Positions 6,576 through 33,676 of a stretch of 64,000 bases of DNA are shown here, one piece after another. Below the pieces are notes generated by a model that did not search any database, was not told the DNA's origin, and saw only the letters and a list, made by a program, of their open reading frames with translations. Made by a program: the position numbers and the translations under genes. Location: contig NZ_JAMLJK010000001.1 of assembly GCF_023700005.1 (NCBI RefSeq), forward strand, positions 62,001 through 126,000, read 5' to 3'. Position 1 is the first letter of the stretch; each line of letters starts with the position of its first letter. The DNA is from Larsenimonas rhizosphaerae. Lineage in GTDB: Bacteria > Pseudomonadota > Gammaproteobacteria > Pseudomonadales > Halomonadaceae.

Positions 6576-6776
6576 AGCTGATTCCCAGGAGGTAGTTGGG
6601 GTGAAAAACAGTTCGGAAAATCGTGGAGGTTCCTTGCGGACACGCTCCGGTCAAGAGCGGGGATTCTAGTGAATTCGGGCCCTGGGTGCAATTTTTATTG
6701 AGCACACGACTTGCATTGGCACGCAACAGGGCGCGCCAGTACGGGGTTTTGACCTGTACGAAAGTGCAAAACAGGG

Positions 6777-9702: not shown

Positions 9703-10788
9703 ATGCCACTTGATCAATTTCGCTGTACCGGGCTTCGTAACCTCGCCTCGGTAGACATGACACCCTCGGCCCATATCAATCTTATTACCGGAGCCAATGG
9801 CAGCGGTAAGACCAGTCTGCTTGAAGGTATTCATATTCTGGGCCTGGCTCGTTCCTTTCGAACGCATCAACTCAAGCAGGCGATCATGCATGACGAAGCT
9901 GCCCTGACGGTATTTGGCCGCCTCGCAGGTGAAGTGCCTGTACCCCTGGGAGTTCGCCGACTGCGGCAGGGGGAGGGCGTCGAGCTCAAAATGGATCGTC
10001 AGCGGGTAGACCGTGTTGCGGTACTGGCTGAAAAACTTCCCTTGCAACTGATCAATCCGGACGCCTTCAGACTGATTGATGGTGCTCCGGCAGCCCGTCG
10101 TGAATTCCTCGATTGGGGCGTGTTTCACGTGAAACATGAATTCTTCGATCTGTGGCGTGCTGCCCGCCGGGCACTGAAACATCGGAATGCGCTGCTCAGA
10201 CATGATAGAATGGACGGTCAGACACTTGACGCCTGGAACGTAGAGCTGGCGCGGTATGCAGAGCAGCTTGATGTGCTGCGACGTGACTATATTCAGTCCT
10301 TTCTGCCGGTGTTCGAGCAGTTGCTGAGCAGATTGATCAGCCTGCCGGATCTGCAGCTGCGTTACTACCGTGGATGGGACAAGGCACGTTCGCTGATTGA
10401 GGTGCTTGAGCAAAGCGCCACAACAGATCGGCAAATGGGCTTCACCCAGCAAGGCCCCCAGCGTGCTGATCTACGGCTCAGGGTGGGTACACGCCCGGCG
10501 GCACAGGTTCTGTCGCGCGGGCAGCAGAAGCTTGTAGTCAGTGCCATGAAGCTGGCCCAGGGGTGGTGGCTCGAACAGGCGACGGGGCGTCAATGCATCT
10601 ATTTGATTGATGACCTGGCAGCTGAACTTGACGAGGAGCACCGACAGGCATTCTGCGGTCTTCTTGAACACATGAAATGTCAGACTTTTCTTACCGGCAT
10701 TGATCGACATCTGCTGGATGACGTGTGGAGTGTGCCCGCTGATGTGGCCCACTTTCACGTCTCGGACGGACGATTAACGGCGGCGTGA
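9703..10788 (+). CDS. recF: DNA replication and repair protein RecF
   Basis: A 361-residue SMC-like ATPase that helps load RecA at gaps, with RecO and RecR. It has Walker A GANGSGKTSLLEGI (about residues 29-42), a signature region LSRGQQKLVVSAMKLAQ and Walker B IYLIDDLAAELD. Length fits the family. The ribosome binding site is poor, suggesting coupling or low expression. The stretch encoding VFHVKH (about residues 140-145) is an exact parS palindrome, so the coding sequence carries a second, non-coding signal. It ends 18 bp before the chosen gyrB start. Confidence 0.97.
   Translation: MPLDQFRCTGLRNLASVDMTPSAHINLITGANGSGKTSLLEGIHILGLARSFRTHQLKQAIMHDEAALTVFGRLAGEVPVPLGVRRLRQGEGVELKMDRQRVDRVAVLAEKLPLQLINPDAFRLIDGAPAARREFLDWGVFHVKHEFFDLWRAARRALKHRNALLRHDRMDGQTLDAWNVELARYAEQLDVLRRDYIQSFLPVFEQLLSRLISLPDLQLRYYRGWDKARSLIEVLEQSATTDRQMGFTQQGPQRADLRLRVGTRPAAQVLSRGQQKLVVSAMKLAQGWWLEQATGRQCIYLIDDLAAELDEEHRQAFCGLLEHMKCQTFLTGIDRHLLDDVWSVPADVAHFHVSDGRLTAA
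10121..10136. other. parS site 1 (exact), inside recF
   Basis: TGTTTCACGTGAAACA, a perfect 16-bp palindrome identical to the widely conserved chromosomal parS that ParB binds (known from Bacillus and many other bacteria). It lies within recF codons for VFHVKH. Confidence 0.85.
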
Positions 10789-13239: not shown

Positions 13240-13255
13240 TGTTTCACGTGAAACA
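13240..13255. other. parS site 2 (exact), between gyrB and its terminator
   Basis: TGTTTCACGTGAAACA in the 16 bp right after the gyrB stop, directly before the terminator hairpin at 13261. Perfect match to the parS consensus. Confidence 0.85.
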
Positions 13256-14345: not shown

Positions 14346-14361
14346 TGTTTCACATGAAACA
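14346..14361 (+). other. parS-like site 3 (one substitution)
   Basis: TGTTTCACATGAAACA differs from parS by one central base (CACATG for CACGTG). The same variant, in the other orientation, occurs at 27385, and again at 32924, which argues against chance. Confidence 0.65.
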
Positions 14362-14960: not shown

Positions 14961-15224
14961 GGCGGACAGGCTTCCTGATGCGGGACAGATCCAAAAAAAG
15001 CCATGACACATAGCTTTGGATGCAGTGGTTATAAGAAGGGGCTATCCGCCATCGTATCAACGATGGAGATAATTGATATAACAGAGCGACTTAAAGGTGT
15101 GATTATTTACCCTGACCTGATGTTGTAACGCACACCTGCCTTGCACACTCCACCGGACACGCACTTCCGGGCCAGAATATCCGATAACAAGCAATAAATA
15201 GAAAAATGGTTGAGGAGATATTTC

Positions 15225-16355
15225 ATGACAAACAGTACGTTGTATCAGGGCGCAGACCCGTCTCCCCACCCACGATGTATGGGATTCCTGCTTCTTGAAA
15301 ATTTCACCCTGATTTCACTGGCTTCTGCGATTGAGCCCTTGCGTATGGCCAATCAACTGGCAGGCGAGGAATTGTATCGCTGGTATACCATCAGCGCCGA
15401 TGGTCAGCCCCTCCGTGCCAGTGACGGCTTGATGGTCACGCCCGATGAATCCTTCAGTACGGTGCCGTCGCTGGATGATGTAGTGGTTTGCGGTGGCGTT
15501 GCTCCTGGTCGCTACGTTACGCGAAGCCATGTGGTATGGCTTCAGCAGCAGGCGCGACGTCTTTCCCGCATGGGGGCTGTTTGTACCGGCAGCTGGGCGC
15601 TGGCTCGAGCCGGTCTGCTTGATGGATATGAAAGCAGCACGCACTGGGAGTGCATGGCCTCCATGCAGGAAGCCTTTCCCGGTATTGCGCTGACGACACG
15701 GTTATTCTGTATTGACCGGAATCGGTTCACCGCATCAGGTGGCACGGCGCCGATGGACATGATGCTCAACGTCATTGCTCACGATCATGGGCGTGAACTG
15801 GCGGCTGGCATATCGGAAATGTTTATTTATGAGCGAATGCGTAACGAGCAGGATCACCAGCGTGTTCCCCTCAAGCACGTCCTTGGAACGACCCAGCCCA
15901 AGTTGCTTGATACCGTGGCATTGATGGAATCCAATCTTGAAGAGCCGATCAGCCTGTGTGAGCTGGCGCGCTATGTTGATGTATCACGTCGTCAGCTTGA
16001 GCGCCTGTTTCAGAAATACCTTCAATGCTCGCCTTCCCGATATTATCTGAAGCTTCGCCTGACGCGTGCCAGACAGCTGCTCAAGCAGACATCCCTGTCG
16101 ATCATTGATGTCGCCTCGGCCTGCGGGTTTGTTTCCACGCCCCATTTTTCCAAGTGCTACCGGGAGTTCTTTGGTGTCCCCCCCCGTGATGAACGCCTGG
16201 GCGTACTGTCTCGCAAGCAGCAGGAACAGACATTGGCCATTAGCCAGGCGCCACCGGTGCTTTCCCTGACGGAAACGCGGTTTTCAAGTGCCCAGCTGGC
16301 GCTTTCAAATGCCCTTGGCGAACCGACCTACGCCAGTATTCGTGTACCTCATTAG
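15225..16355 (+). CDS. gbdR: GbdR-like AraC-family activator of glycine betaine catabolism
   Basis: A 376-residue regulator with an N-terminal DJ-1/PfpI-like domain (MGFLLLENFTLISLASAIEPL; GAVCTGSWALARAGLLDG around residues 115-135) and a C-terminal AraC helix-turn-helix pair (SRRQLERLFQKYL; IDVASACGFVSTPHFSKCYR). This architecture and the position beside dgc and gbc genes match Pseudomonas GbdR, which senses betaine and dimethylglycine and activates these genes. GAGGAGA precedes the ATG at 15225; a 5-codon TTG extension was dropped. The 50-bp palindromic terminator follows. Confidence in the family is high; in the exact effector, moderate. Confidence 0.88.
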   Translation: MTNSTLYQGADPSPHPRCMGFLLLENFTLISLASAIEPLRMANQLAGEELYRWYTISADGQPLRASDGLMVTPDESFSTVPSLDDVVVCGGVAPGRYVTRSHVVWLQQQARRLSRMGAVCTGSWALARAGLLDGYESSTHWECMASMQEAFPGIALTTRLFCIDRNRFTASGGTAPMDMMLNVIAHDHGRELAAGISEMFIYERMRNEQDHQRVPLKHVLGTTQPKLLDTVALMESNLEEPISLCELARYVDVSRRQLERLFQKYLQCSPSRYYLKLRLTRARQLLKQTSLSIIDVASACGFVSTPHFSKCYREFFGVPPRDERLGVLSRKQQEQTLAISQAPPVLSLTETRFSSAQLALSNALGEPTYASIRVPH

Positions 16356-16370
16356 CAGGAAGTATTATTC

Positions 16371-16420
16371 CCCGCTGACAAAAAAGGCCCGGTGATCACC
16401 GGGCCTTTTTTGTCAGCGGG
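16371..16420. terminator. 50-bp perfect palindrome, terminator of gbdR
   Basis: 25 bases from CCCGCTGACA to GGTGA at 16371-16395 are followed by their exact reverse complement at 16396-16420, with no spacer. It includes A6 and T6 tracts around GGCCCGGTGATCACCGGGCC, so it can terminate in both directions. It lies between gbdR and the betaine operon, both on plus, so insulation of the operon from gbdR read-through is the likely role. The length and perfection are unusual. Confidence 0.88.
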
Positions 16421-27361: not shown

Positions 27362-27377
27362 TAATCGTTCTGACGCC

Positions 27378-27407
27378 GTGTACATGTTTCATGTGAAACA
27401 TGTACAC
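27378..27407 (-). other. parS-like site 4 (27385-27400) within a 30-bp inverted repeat
   Basis: The core TGTTTCATGTGAAACA is the reverse complement of the variants at 14346 and 32924, so the same one-base variant of parS. Here the pairing extends outwards to GTGTACATGTTTCA / TGAAACATGTACAC, 14-bp perfect arms around a TG centre. It lies 17 bp after the gbcB stop. No T-tract follows, so this is not an obvious terminator. Confidence 0.65.
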
Positions 27408-27435
27408 GCATAATGATGGTGTTGATCTTTATCTG

Positions 27436-27643: not shown

Positions 27644-27659
27644 TGTTTCACGTGAAACA
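27644..27659. other. parS site 5 (exact), between gbcB and glyS
   Basis: TGTTTCACGTGAAACA in the intergenic space between convergent gbcB and glyS. Confidence 0.85.
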
Positions 27660-30913: not shown

Positions 30914-31864
30914 ATGATTGTGGTGACAGGCGGGGCCGGCTTCATCGGGGCCAATATCGTCAAGGCGCTCAATGCGCGTGGACGGACAGATATCGTGGTG
31001 GTGGATGACCTCACTGACGGCACCAAGTTTGTCAATCTGGTGGATTGTCAGATCGAGGACTACCTCGACAAGGATGATTTTCTGGCGAGGGTGAAGGCTG
31101 CCAGTCTGCCGCCTGTCGATGCCATCTTTCATGAAGGCGCCTGCTCCTCCACGACCGAGTGGAATGGCAGGTTCATGCTCGAGAACAACTTTGAATACTC
31201 CAAGGTGTTGCTGCACTACTGCAACGACCGTGGTATTCCGTTTTTGTACGCCTCGTCGGCAGCCACCTACGGTGACAGCGACGTCTTTGTTGAGTCACCT
31301 GATTACGAAAAGCCGCTGAATGTGTACGGCTACTCGAAGCTGTTGTTTGATCAGTACGTTCGTCATCACTGGGAGCGGCTGACAACGCAGGTCGTGGGTT
31401 TTCGCTATTTCAACGTGTATGGCCCGCGCGAGCAGCACAAGGGCAGCATGGCCAGCGTTGCCTTTCATCATCACACTCAGGTGCTGGCTGGCGAGAACCC
31501 GAAGCTTTTTGGAGCATGGGACGGGTATGACGCAGGCATGCAGAGCCGTGACTTTGTCTATGTCGGTGATGTGGTCAGCGTTAATCTATGGTTTCTGGAT
31601 CATTCGAATATTTCCGGGATTTTCAATCTGGGCACCGGGCGTGCCGAGCCGTTCAAGGCCATCGCCGACACGGTCATCGGTTACTACGGCAAGGGCGCAA
31701 TTGACTTCATCGACTTCCCCGATCATCTGAAAGGGCGTTATCAAAGCTACACCCGTGCCGATATTACGGCGCTGCGCGAGGCCGGGTATCAGGCACCGTT
31801 CAAGACCGTGGCCGAAGGCGTAAGTGAATATCTTGGATGGCTCAACGGCGAGGGTGGCACCTGA
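30914..31864 (+). CDS. hldD: ADP-L-glycero-D-manno-heptose-6-epimerase
   Basis: Converts ADP-D,D-heptose to ADP-L,D-heptose, the donor for lipopolysaccharide inner-core heptose. The 316-residue SDR protein has [11 protein letters not shown] at the N-terminus, catalytic YGYSK and the family's [20 protein letters not shown] chose the ATG at 30914, where the nucleotide-binding strand begins, with GGAG upstream; the 14-codon extension is unlikely. One base separates its stop from waaF, so they form an operon. Confidence 0.95.
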
Positions 31865-31865
31865 T

Positions 31866-32867
31866 ATGTCAGAGGTGCCGGAACGTATTCTTGTAGTTGG
31901 GCCTTCCTGGGTCGGCGACATGGTCATGGCGCAAAGCCTGTTCAAGACACTGAAGCGCCACAACGGTGCGGCAGTCATTGATGTGATGGGCCCTCGCTGG
32001 TCGCTCCCGATTCTGGCGCGCATGCCGGAGGTGCGTCATGCACTGACGCTTGATACCAGCCATGGTCAGTTCGGTCTCAAGGCGCGCTGGCAGCTAGCCC
32101 GGCAACTGCGTGGTAAATACGATCGTGCGATTGTGTTGCCAAGGTCATGGAAGTCGGCACTGGTACCTTTCCTGGCCGGCATTCCCCGACGTACCGGCTT
32201 TCTGGGTGAGCAGCGCTATGTTGTTCTGACCGAGCGACGCACGCTCGACAGAAAGGTACTGGATCAGACCGTAAAGCGGTTTGTGTCCCTGGGACTGCCG
32301 GTAGAAGATGGGATGCCGCCGTCGGAGATCCCTGTACCATCCCTTGAGCGTGATCCGGACAATCTGGCGTCGCTGGTCACTACGCTGGGGCTGTCATCGG
32401 CGCCCAGAATCGGGATGATGCCAGGTGCTGAGTATGGTCCAGCCAAACAGTGGCCATTGACCCATTACCACGCGCTTGCAGCCCGGCTGGTAGCAAAGGG
32501 CTATGACGTCATCGTGCTGGGTGGCCCAAAGGATGTTGAGGCCGGGGAGGTTATTGCCGAAGGGCAGCAGGGTGTCTTCAATCTGTGCGGTAAAACCCGG
32601 CTTGCCGATGCGGTGGACCTGCTGGGAAGCTGTGAGCAGGTCGTCACGAATGATTCCGGGCTGATGCACGTGGCGGCCGCCACAGGAGTCAGGATTCATG
32701 CCATCTATGGTTCATCCTCACCCGCCTATACTCCTCCGCTGACCACTGACGCGACGATTCACACGCTGGCACTCTCCTGTTCTCCCTGTTTCGAGCGGAA
32801 ATGCCCGCTGGGGCATACTGATTGTCTCAACAAGCTGTCGGTTGAGCGGATTGCAGCGTCGATGTAA
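31866..32867 (+). CDS. waaF: ADP-heptose:LPS heptosyltransferase II
   Basis: A 333-residue family-9 glycosyltransferase that adds the second heptose of the inner core. It begins RILVVGPSWVGDMVMAQSL and has the acceptor-side LPRSWKSALVPFLAGIPRRTGF. The nucleotide-heptose-binding region is PGAEYGPAKQWP, TNDSGLMHVAAA and FERKCPLGHTDCL, typical of WaaF rather than WaaC. The start overlaps a 14-codon longer frame inside hldD; I chose the ATG at 31866, right after the hldD stop. A palindromic terminator follows. Confidence 0.92.
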   Translation: MSEVPERILVVGPSWVGDMVMAQSLFKTLKRHNGAAVIDVMGPRWSLPILARMPEVRHALTLDTSHGQFGLKARWQLARQLRGKYDRAIVLPRSWKSALVPFLAGIPRRTGFLGEQRYVVLTERRTLDRKVLDQTVKRFVSLGLPVEDGMPPSEIPVPSLERDPDNLASLVTTLGLSSAPRIGMMPGAEYGPAKQWPLTHYHALAARLVAKGYDVIVLGGPKDVEAGEVIAEGQQGVFNLCGKTRLADAVDLLGSCEQVVTNDSGLMHVAAATGVRIHAIYGSSSPAYTPPLTTDATIHTLALSCSPCFERKCPLGHTDCLNKLSVERIAASM

Positions 32868-32911: not shown

Positions 32912-32951
32912 AAAAAGCCCGAATGTTTCACATGAAACATTCGGGCTTTTT
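32912..32951. terminator. Bidirectional terminator that contains a parS-like core
   Basis: AAAAAGCCCGAATGTTTCA (32912-32930), CA, then the exact reverse complement (32933-32951) with T5 on each strand. It ends waaF on plus and can stop the minus-strand tautomerase gene. The loop-proximal part is the parS variant TGTTTCACATGAAACA (32924-32939), so the palindrome appears to serve two roles. Confidence 0.82.
32924..32939 (+). other. parS-like site 6 (one substitution), inside the waaF terminator
   Basis: TGTTTCACATGAAACA, identical to the variant at 14346, forming the top of the terminator stem described at 32912-32951. Confidence 0.62.
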
Positions 32952-32976: not shown

Positions 32977-32992
32977 TGTTTCACGTGAAACA
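32977..32992. other. parS site 7 (exact)
   Basis: TGTTTCACGTGAAACA, extended to a 22-bp palindrome (TCATG arms, 32974-32995). It lies 37 bp from site 6 and 12 bp after the tautomerase stop. Confidence 0.85.
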
Positions 32993-33004: not shown

Positions 33005-33370
33005 TCAGTCAGTCACAAACTGCGCGATGCCATCGGAAAAGGACCAGTCAATATCCTGATTTTCCGTAATGACGATCATTATATTTTCGGAAGACACACC
33101 GATTTTTTCCGACAGGGCGGCAACTACATCCTGATAAAAGGCTTTCTTCTGGGCATCCGTACGCCCGCTGCGCATGGTCAACTGAAGCGCGACCCGTTCT
33201 CCCTGCCGTGTCTGAAGCTCAAGGGCATCAGGGGTCATGGTATTGATAAGGTGGTAGCGGTCATCATCCGGAAAATCCATGGTGCGAATGACAGATGCAT
33301 TAACGAGGTCAGCGATATCCTTCCGGCGTTCGGCCAGCCCTTCGGTAATGGAAATGGTGACGAGTGGCAT
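33005..33370 (-). CDS. Tautomerase-family protein
   Basis: A 121-residue protein starting MPLVTISITEGLAERRKDIA. Removal of Met would expose Pro-1, the catalytic base of the 4-oxalocrotonate tautomerase superfamily. The length suggests a fused double-beta-alpha-beta form, related to longer tautomerases, rather than the 60-residue type. The substrate is unknown. AGGAG lies 9 nt upstream of the ATG at 33370; the 17-codon upstream extension was dropped. A possible minus-strand promoter (TTTTCA, 17 bp, TATGAT) lies at 33444-33472. It seems to be a single-gene unit between parS site 7 and the glycosyltransferase cluster. Confidence 0.8.
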   Translation of the reverse strand: MPLVTISITEGLAERRKDIADLVNASVIRTMDFPDDDRYHLINTMTPDALELQTRQGERVALQLTMRSGRTDAQKKAFYQDVVAALSEKIGVSSENIMIVITENQDIDWSFSDGIAQFVTD

Positions 33371-33676
33371 GCGGGTAGCTCCTGGGTTGGCGTGTGACGA
33401 AGTTACTTTGGCGAACGTCATCGTATTGATGCGTTACCTGAACATCATAGAAGTCTTCGTCCACTGTGAAAAACACGCAGGTAGTCTTTTGATGCAATGC
33501 AGGAATGAACGGGAGGTTTCATAAGGATTCAGCGCAGGATGGACATTAATGGTCCCGGTTATATTCGTGCTTTCTGGTCGGCGCTTGCAGGGCATGCATC
33601 AAGGGGCGGGGAATGGGGCTGCTATCGAATACGGTGCGTTACCGATTTTTCAGTAGAGCCCCTGGAAGAGACAAGG
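33371..33676. other. Intergenic gap between tautomerase gene and glycosyltransferase cluster
   Basis: About 306 bp without a supported gene. On the minus strand there is a plausible sigma-70 promoter for the tautomerase gene (TTTTCA at 33472-33467, 17-bp spacer, TATGAT at 33449-33444). Nothing else is recognisable, including no clear terminator for the upstream operon. Confidence 0.45.

Follow-up and report, generated by a model that had tools for sequence, protein, structure and literature searches.

A palindrome between two convergent genes

Larsenimonas rhizosphaerae is a member of the Halomonadaceae, and the window analysed here is a stretch of 64,000 nucleotides of its genome. Near the middle of the window a waaF-like heptosyltransferase gene and a tautomerase gene converge, and a 40-bp palindrome lies between them, 44 bp past the waaF stop and 53 bp from the tautomerase stop. 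The features of this junction are as follows.

31824-32867, plus strand: waaF-like heptosyltransferase gene, reading into the element (Pfam Glyco_transf_9)
32912-32951, no strand assigned: perfect inverted repeat of 40 bp that ends in A5 and T5, a predicted two-way intrinsic terminator (arms, folds of both strands, retention in two sister species)
32924-32939, no strand assigned: parS variant TGTTTCACATGAAACA, which makes up the loop and upper stem of the hairpin (one mismatch to parS; CACGTG in the sister species G001 and G002)
32977-32992, no strand assigned: exact parS, 37 bp from the site at 32924-32939 (motif search)
33005-33421, minus strand: tautomerase gene, reading into the element from the opposite side (Pfam Tautomerase_2)

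The two arms of the inverted repeat (32912-32930 and 32933-32951) are 19 nt long, 100% complementary and separated by a spacer of 2 nt. The outer stem is GCCCGAA/TTCGGGC and the ends are runs of A5 and T5. Folded as RNA, the hairpin reaches -27.6 kcal/mol on the plus strand (z -7.5) and -27.0 kcal/mol on the minus strand (z -8.5), a stability attained by 0 of 200 shuffles. A T5 run is present on the 3' side of both strands, where it pairs with the A-tract, since A5 and T5 are themselves the ends of the arms. A simple terminator scan of the window did not list the element, most likely because its rule requires the T run to lie 3' of the stem. A G/C-containing hairpin, a 3' T-tract and a position after gene ends, all found here, are features of an intrinsic terminator. 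Elsewhere in the window, a 50-bp perfect palindrome at 16371-16420 (25-bp arms, no spacer, A6/T6 runs), directly after an open reading frame at 15210-16355, resembles a two-way terminator free of parS.

The inner 16 bp differ from TGTTTCACGTGAAACA, which we take to be the 16-bp parS consensus, by a single central change, CACATG for CACGTG. The first-pass annotation of this DNA had read the palindrome after waaF as a bidirectional terminator with A5/T5 flanks and a GCCCGAA stem, and its inner 16 bp as a variant of parS. The perfect arms and the folds of both strands bear out the first reading; the single mismatch, together with the exact core in two sister species, agrees with the second.

The parS sites and ParB of the genome

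A search of the window at up to 3 mismatches returned seven parS sites, all with 0-1 mismatch, against a shuffle expectation of 0.19. Across the whole genome (9 contigs), eight places match at up to 2 mismatches; the seven with 0-1 mismatch all lie inside the window. These seven lie inside 23 kb beside dnaA, which we take as the marker of the origin, and the first is some 3 kb away from where dnaA starts. The names dnaA, recF, gyrB, argC and glyS are provisional. Besides the two sites at the waaF junction, the set comprises:

10121-10136, no strand assigned: exact parS inside recF (motif search)
13240-13255, no strand assigned: exact parS after gyrB, with a separate T-run hairpin adjoining (motif search)
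14346-14361, no strand assigned: parS variant CACATG after argC, with a separate T-run hairpin adjoining (motif search)
27377-27408, no strand assigned: extended palindrome with arms of 15 bp and a CATGTG variant of parS at its core, without a T-tract, between convergent genes (palindrome search, fold)
27644-27659, no strand assigned: exact parS downstream of glyS (motif search)

The ParB family model has one match above its cut-off in the genome (G000:C1:38873-39388). This protein aligns to Caulobacter ParB and carries R, L, A and G at the counted equivalents of residues 173, 179, 184 and 201, of which R173 and G201 are described as absolutely conserved among ParB orthologs (PMC7383237, accessible part). 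The site at 32924-32939 accordingly combines the 16-bp consensus (with one central mismatch), membership of an origin-proximal cluster and a cognate ParB in the same genome. Caulobacter parS sites have one conserved half, GTGAAA, in common (PMC5815017, as far as its accessible text goes), and the CACATG version retains a GTGAAA half on one side.

Conservation and recurrence in the Halomonadaceae

The same stem and tracts are found in G001 and G002, the two other species searched (2/2), around an exact CACGTG core. Their element departs from that of the window solely at its centre and in the length of the tracts, whereas the flanking junction diverges much more. The two sisters are very similar to each other at this locus and therefore do not count as independent witnesses. 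Both have a second parS nearby, a palindrome with 15-bp arms and no T-tract, which lies on the waaF side of the terminator at a gap of 41 bp; the partner in the window lies on the opposite side. Of the tight pair proposed at first, the exact parS 37 bp away stands, but the status of the pair as a conserved unit is weakened.

The pattern AAAA-N2-16-parS-N2-16-TTTT was searched in 250 genomes of 24 genera of the family, the present genome (G000) included, and was found in 11 genomes of 8 genera. Ten of these 11 matches, from seven genera, carry at least five uninterrupted perfect pairs beyond parS, and the remaining one (G018) has a mismatch adjoining the core. In four matches (G003, G120, G103 and G223) the two tracts are not both directly on the stem. 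The mirror pattern TTTT-parS-AAAA occurs in 13 of the same 250 genomes, all of one genus, and two of the 13 (G152 and G248) are palindromic by eye.

A further view is offered by a sample of relatives that was collected through waaF and not through parS (33 loci which, with the window, make 34 sources). It contains 81 parS sites in 29 of the 34 sources, and 71 of the 81 have fewer than five extra pairs. At least five extra pairs are present at 10 of the 52 sites outside similarity-mapped genes, against a mean of 0.45 and a maximum of 3 in 2000 rounds of shuffled flanks, and at 0 of the 29 sites inside such genes. Cores are altered in 5 of the 10 hairpin sites compared with 4 of the 71 others; once two sites of genus g7 are moved to the hairpin class, the figures become 7/12 and 2/69.

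A parS-terminator within 700 bp after waaF was found in 3 of 39 entries, all of this genus, which rules out a family-wide arrangement at the end of waaF; the parS-terminator of g7 sits further from waaF than 700 bp.

Distribution in other bacteria

Genome contigs were scanned with the pattern AAAAGS-N0-12-parS-N0-12-SCTTTT, which yielded at least 122 sites in at least 119 stretches. Among the 122 sites listed, 105 have six or more perfect extra pairs, whereas random re-pairing of the flanks gives a mean of 3.8 such sites and a maximum of 12. The extended sites among the matches listed belong to several phyla and include Shewanella, Methylotenera, Paenibacillus, Clostridia, Bacteroidales, an actinobacterium and a Pirellulaceae MAG. 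Crude trimming of the first 80 of at least 119 loci gives 49 stems, and among the matches listed 5 of the 105 extended sites have altered cores. Near position 6761 of one Methylotenera locus (L101), a parS whose palindrome is perfectly extended by 16 bp, with no T-tract, lies in a divergent intergenic region.

Some of the sites are found repeatedly at a single junction. In tests of 80 of the at least 119 loci, with the query locus included in each count, 12 parS-terminators follow the same amidohydrolase gene in Shewanella and 6 follow a DUF1924 gene in Methylotenera and others (both genes assigned by Pfam). Among the same 80 loci, six different Bacillota (L134, L161, L130, L096, L124 and L100) have parS 12-36 bp past the end of the match to rsmG, a gene recognized by eye. 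At two Paenibacillus loci of this last set a noc-like gene, likewise identified by eye, follows.

These fusions are a minority arrangement: under a strict pattern, 4 of 349 genomes in a phylum sample carry one. All four are perfect, and two of them are G000 and G016 of the family considered here; the mirror pattern is found in 0 of 349. Shuffles and mirror-pattern controls together rule out a chance origin. The locus is also not unique, since the same arrangement occurs in other genomes, and the first proposal, that one palindrome has the anatomy of both a terminator and a parS, holds well beyond the window: the anatomy is real, is conserved in two sister species and has counterparts elsewhere.

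Position at gene ends

Gene orientation around the sites on the scan contigs was derived with a simple ORF caller. The counts below are given in the order convergent, tandem, divergent, intragenic, undecided.

Extended sites, 105 listed: 49, 30, 4, 7, 15
Non-extended parS on the same contigs listed, 85: 10, 30, 7, 33, 5
Further parS extended by at least 5 pairs outside the pattern, contigs listed, 20: 1, 9, 5, 4, 1
Non-extended pattern sites among the matches listed, 17: 1, 10, 1, 3, 2

Among placeable intergenic sites in the matches listed, 49 of 83 extended sites are convergent compared with 10 of 47 non-extended ones (Fisher p 4e-5, uncorrected for relatedness); the rows of the scan are related, and p values therefore overstate their independence. 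The 20 extended sites outside the pattern, of which only 1 is convergent, speak against any simple rule. A wider parS pattern applied to the 33 relatives' loci gave, for extended sites, 6 convergent, 1 tandem and 1 intragenic and, for other sites, 16 convergent, 31 tandem, 3 divergent and 48 intragenic.

Which part of the palindrome is constant

Three genera allow the parS core and the surrounding stem to be followed separately. In genus g15, glyS was looked up in 10 genomes, and all 10 have the 16-mer 556-579 nt past the end of the glyS match. Its variation is confined to the two central bases, which give CACGTG in four genomes and CATGTG or CACATG in six. Its surroundings range from a two-way terminator (G016) through an A/T tract on one side only (G092 and G102) and a stem of 5-6 pairs without tracts (G081, G036 and G129) to one or two pairs (G070, G110, G117 and G123). 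A separate hairpin stands beside the 16-mer in G036 and G070, and the altered 16-mer persists without an adjoining T-tract in G036, G070 and G110. Relatives were compared for a core that drifts freely under a kept stem, and this is not what they display: the 16-mer is present in 10/10 while stem and T-tract differ. It follows that parS persists, altered cores included, without the terminator shell.

In genus g7, all six genomes examined have an A/T-tract hairpin between waaF and a glycosyltransferase gene, with parS half-sites in its arms. The loop completes one full CACATG parS in 6/6; five genomes have this full copy on one arm, and G088 has it on the other. The g7 hairpin, near 13597 in L050 and near 1002 in L210, bears one full parS plus an extra half-site, and the arm with the full parS differs by species, as though by an inversion of the loop.

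In genus g51, 30 loci out of 40 genomes were examined. At one junction, three of the 30 carry a parS-terminator with the same exact core, enclosed by the stem GCCATG in two loci and by GCCGG in the third; of the remaining loci, one has an exact parS without extension, 14 have a site with 1-2 mismatches and 12 have no site. Comparison of these genomes indicates that parS is the more constant part, around which the terminator shell has apparently been gained and lost. No compensated change was seen within the parS arms, a weak result in that nearly all searches required those arms.

A proposed role for a centromere site as the top of a terminator hairpin

We consider it likely that a parS site at 32912-32951 was recruited to form the apex of a bidirectional intrinsic terminator. 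Because parS is itself a 16-bp palindrome, its transcript already provides some six pairs, mostly A/U, and a loop of four bases. Complementary G:C-rich pairs, few in number, with an outer A-tract and T-tract would then complete a terminator usable from both convergent genes. RNA polymerase is predicted to terminate there, and the ParB of this genome to bind the CACATG version. The main driver would be economy rather than coupling of the two functions; economy is reason enough, since a parS that lies between convergent genes brings the top of the hairpin with it. As judged from sequence comparison, the palindrome is composite, it lies at gene ends, it has emerged repeatedly on different stems and its core is retained where the stem differs. 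Points on the other side are the minority status of the arrangement, the simple terminator scan that did not list the element, and the extended palindromes that lack the tracts.

A more ambitious reading is that this fusion of centromere and terminator has arisen repeatedly because it is useful. The terminator would keep RNA polymerase off the point at which ParB loads and so shield it, or ParB, once bound, would form a roadblock and in this way strengthen or tune termination of the flanking genes. We regard this as a tentative and rather unlikely explanation. The bias to convergent junctions among the scan matches listed is in keeping with it, but any bidirectional terminator is expected at such junctions. 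In Pseudomonas aeruginosa, ParB represses genes beside the intergenic sites parS3 and parS4, and ParB at parS can therefore affect transcription (PMC5521831, accessible text). Against this, the binding of plasmid F ParB is described as undisturbed by active transcription (PMC6238139, likewise in its accessible part), and the genome studied here also has a parS inside recF.

The opposite possibility, which we hold to be improbable, is that only the terminator matters and that the inner 16 bp, once a parS, are now in decay and are retained solely for their pairing in RNA. The CACATG of the window copy and the enrichment of altered cores in the relatives' hairpin sites speak for it; this excess could mean that hairpin sites of the family are weaker ParB sites, and it counts against an intact double role. 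Decay is harder to reconcile with the exact core within the same stem in the sisters, with the altered 16-mer that stands without an adjoining T-tract in three g15 genomes, or with the g7 loop, which should be dispensable for termination and still completes a full parS in all six genomes. The lack of compensated changes in the parS arms weighs, weakly, on the same side.

It is less probable still that template switching at parS lengthens the palindrome by mutation, with no selection for termination. Extended palindromes free of tracts do exist, at 27377-27408 and at the second site of G001 and G002, and others are tandem, divergent or intragenic. Such a process predicts both orientations of the tracts equally, whereas the mirror is absent from the phylum sample (0/349 against 4/349), and in the family two palindromic mirror genomes of one genus stand against ten genomes of seven genera; the bias toward convergent gene ends among the scan matches listed is a further point against it. 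The excess of AAAA-TTTT over TTTT-AAAA and the gene-end bias therefore favour selection on termination over simple lengthening of the palindrome. A lineage-specific longer parS, with the flanks as part of an extended ParB operator, is very improbable: it would suit the Peptococcaceae MAG L123, where four further parS in 8 kb (1163, 2965, 4725 and 7877) share the flanks ttgcaaa/tttgcaa inside and outside ORFs, but the seven sites of the window genome have no flanks in common, and among the scan matches listed many different stems surround the core.

Relation to known systems

Co-option of parS into a terminator, the reading preferred here, joins two familiar elements. The site resembles chromosomal parS of ParABS systems in its 16-bp palindrome, in the several origin-near copies and in the presence of a parS-specific type of ParB in the genome; what sets the copy at 32924-32939 apart is its place within a terminator-like hairpin and a single change at its centre. 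The element likewise has the G/C stem, the A-tract and T-tract and the convergent genes on both sides of bidirectional intrinsic (Rho-independent) terminators; unlike these, the apical half of its stem is a centromere site, which is kept where the stem changes.

A precedent is offered by the DNA-uptake-signal terminators of Neisseria and Pasteurellaceae, in which a DNA-level signal has been put to use as the stem of a terminator; the hairpin there is made of complementary copies of the uptake word that lie close together, and a genome contains hundreds of copies (PMC1852404, accessible part). The present element falls outside that class, as one parS palindrome makes the stem and the genome has seven copies with 0-1 mismatch. 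P. aeruginosa parS3 and parS4 are also intergenic parS sites that touch transcription, but they lie in promoter regions and act through ParB repression (PMC5521831, same text), whereas the site here lies in a predicted terminator.

The kinds of element are all known, namely parS, intrinsic terminators and DNA signals recruited into terminators; in the literature searched, no centromere site was found to serve as the stem of a terminator. The titles and abstracts covered, few of them from subscription papers, gave no report of parS inside a terminator, and a search for the variant 16-mer turned up no paper. The word 'terminator' is absent from the accessible part of a paper on repABC parS sites (PMC9040568).

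Implications for chromosome segregation and gene ends

parS is usually treated as a DNA loading site and terminators as RNA signals, and yet the fusion of the two recurs in distant bacteria. Simple terminator predictors can miss hairpins of this kind, and deletion of parS in species that carry them may also remove a terminator. Related species with parS alone, or with a one-way or two-way terminator at the same junction, constitute natural experiments, and allow direct tests of whether transcription through the centromere matters and whether ParB affects termination. If the two functions are coupled, chromosome segregation would be linked to gene ends.
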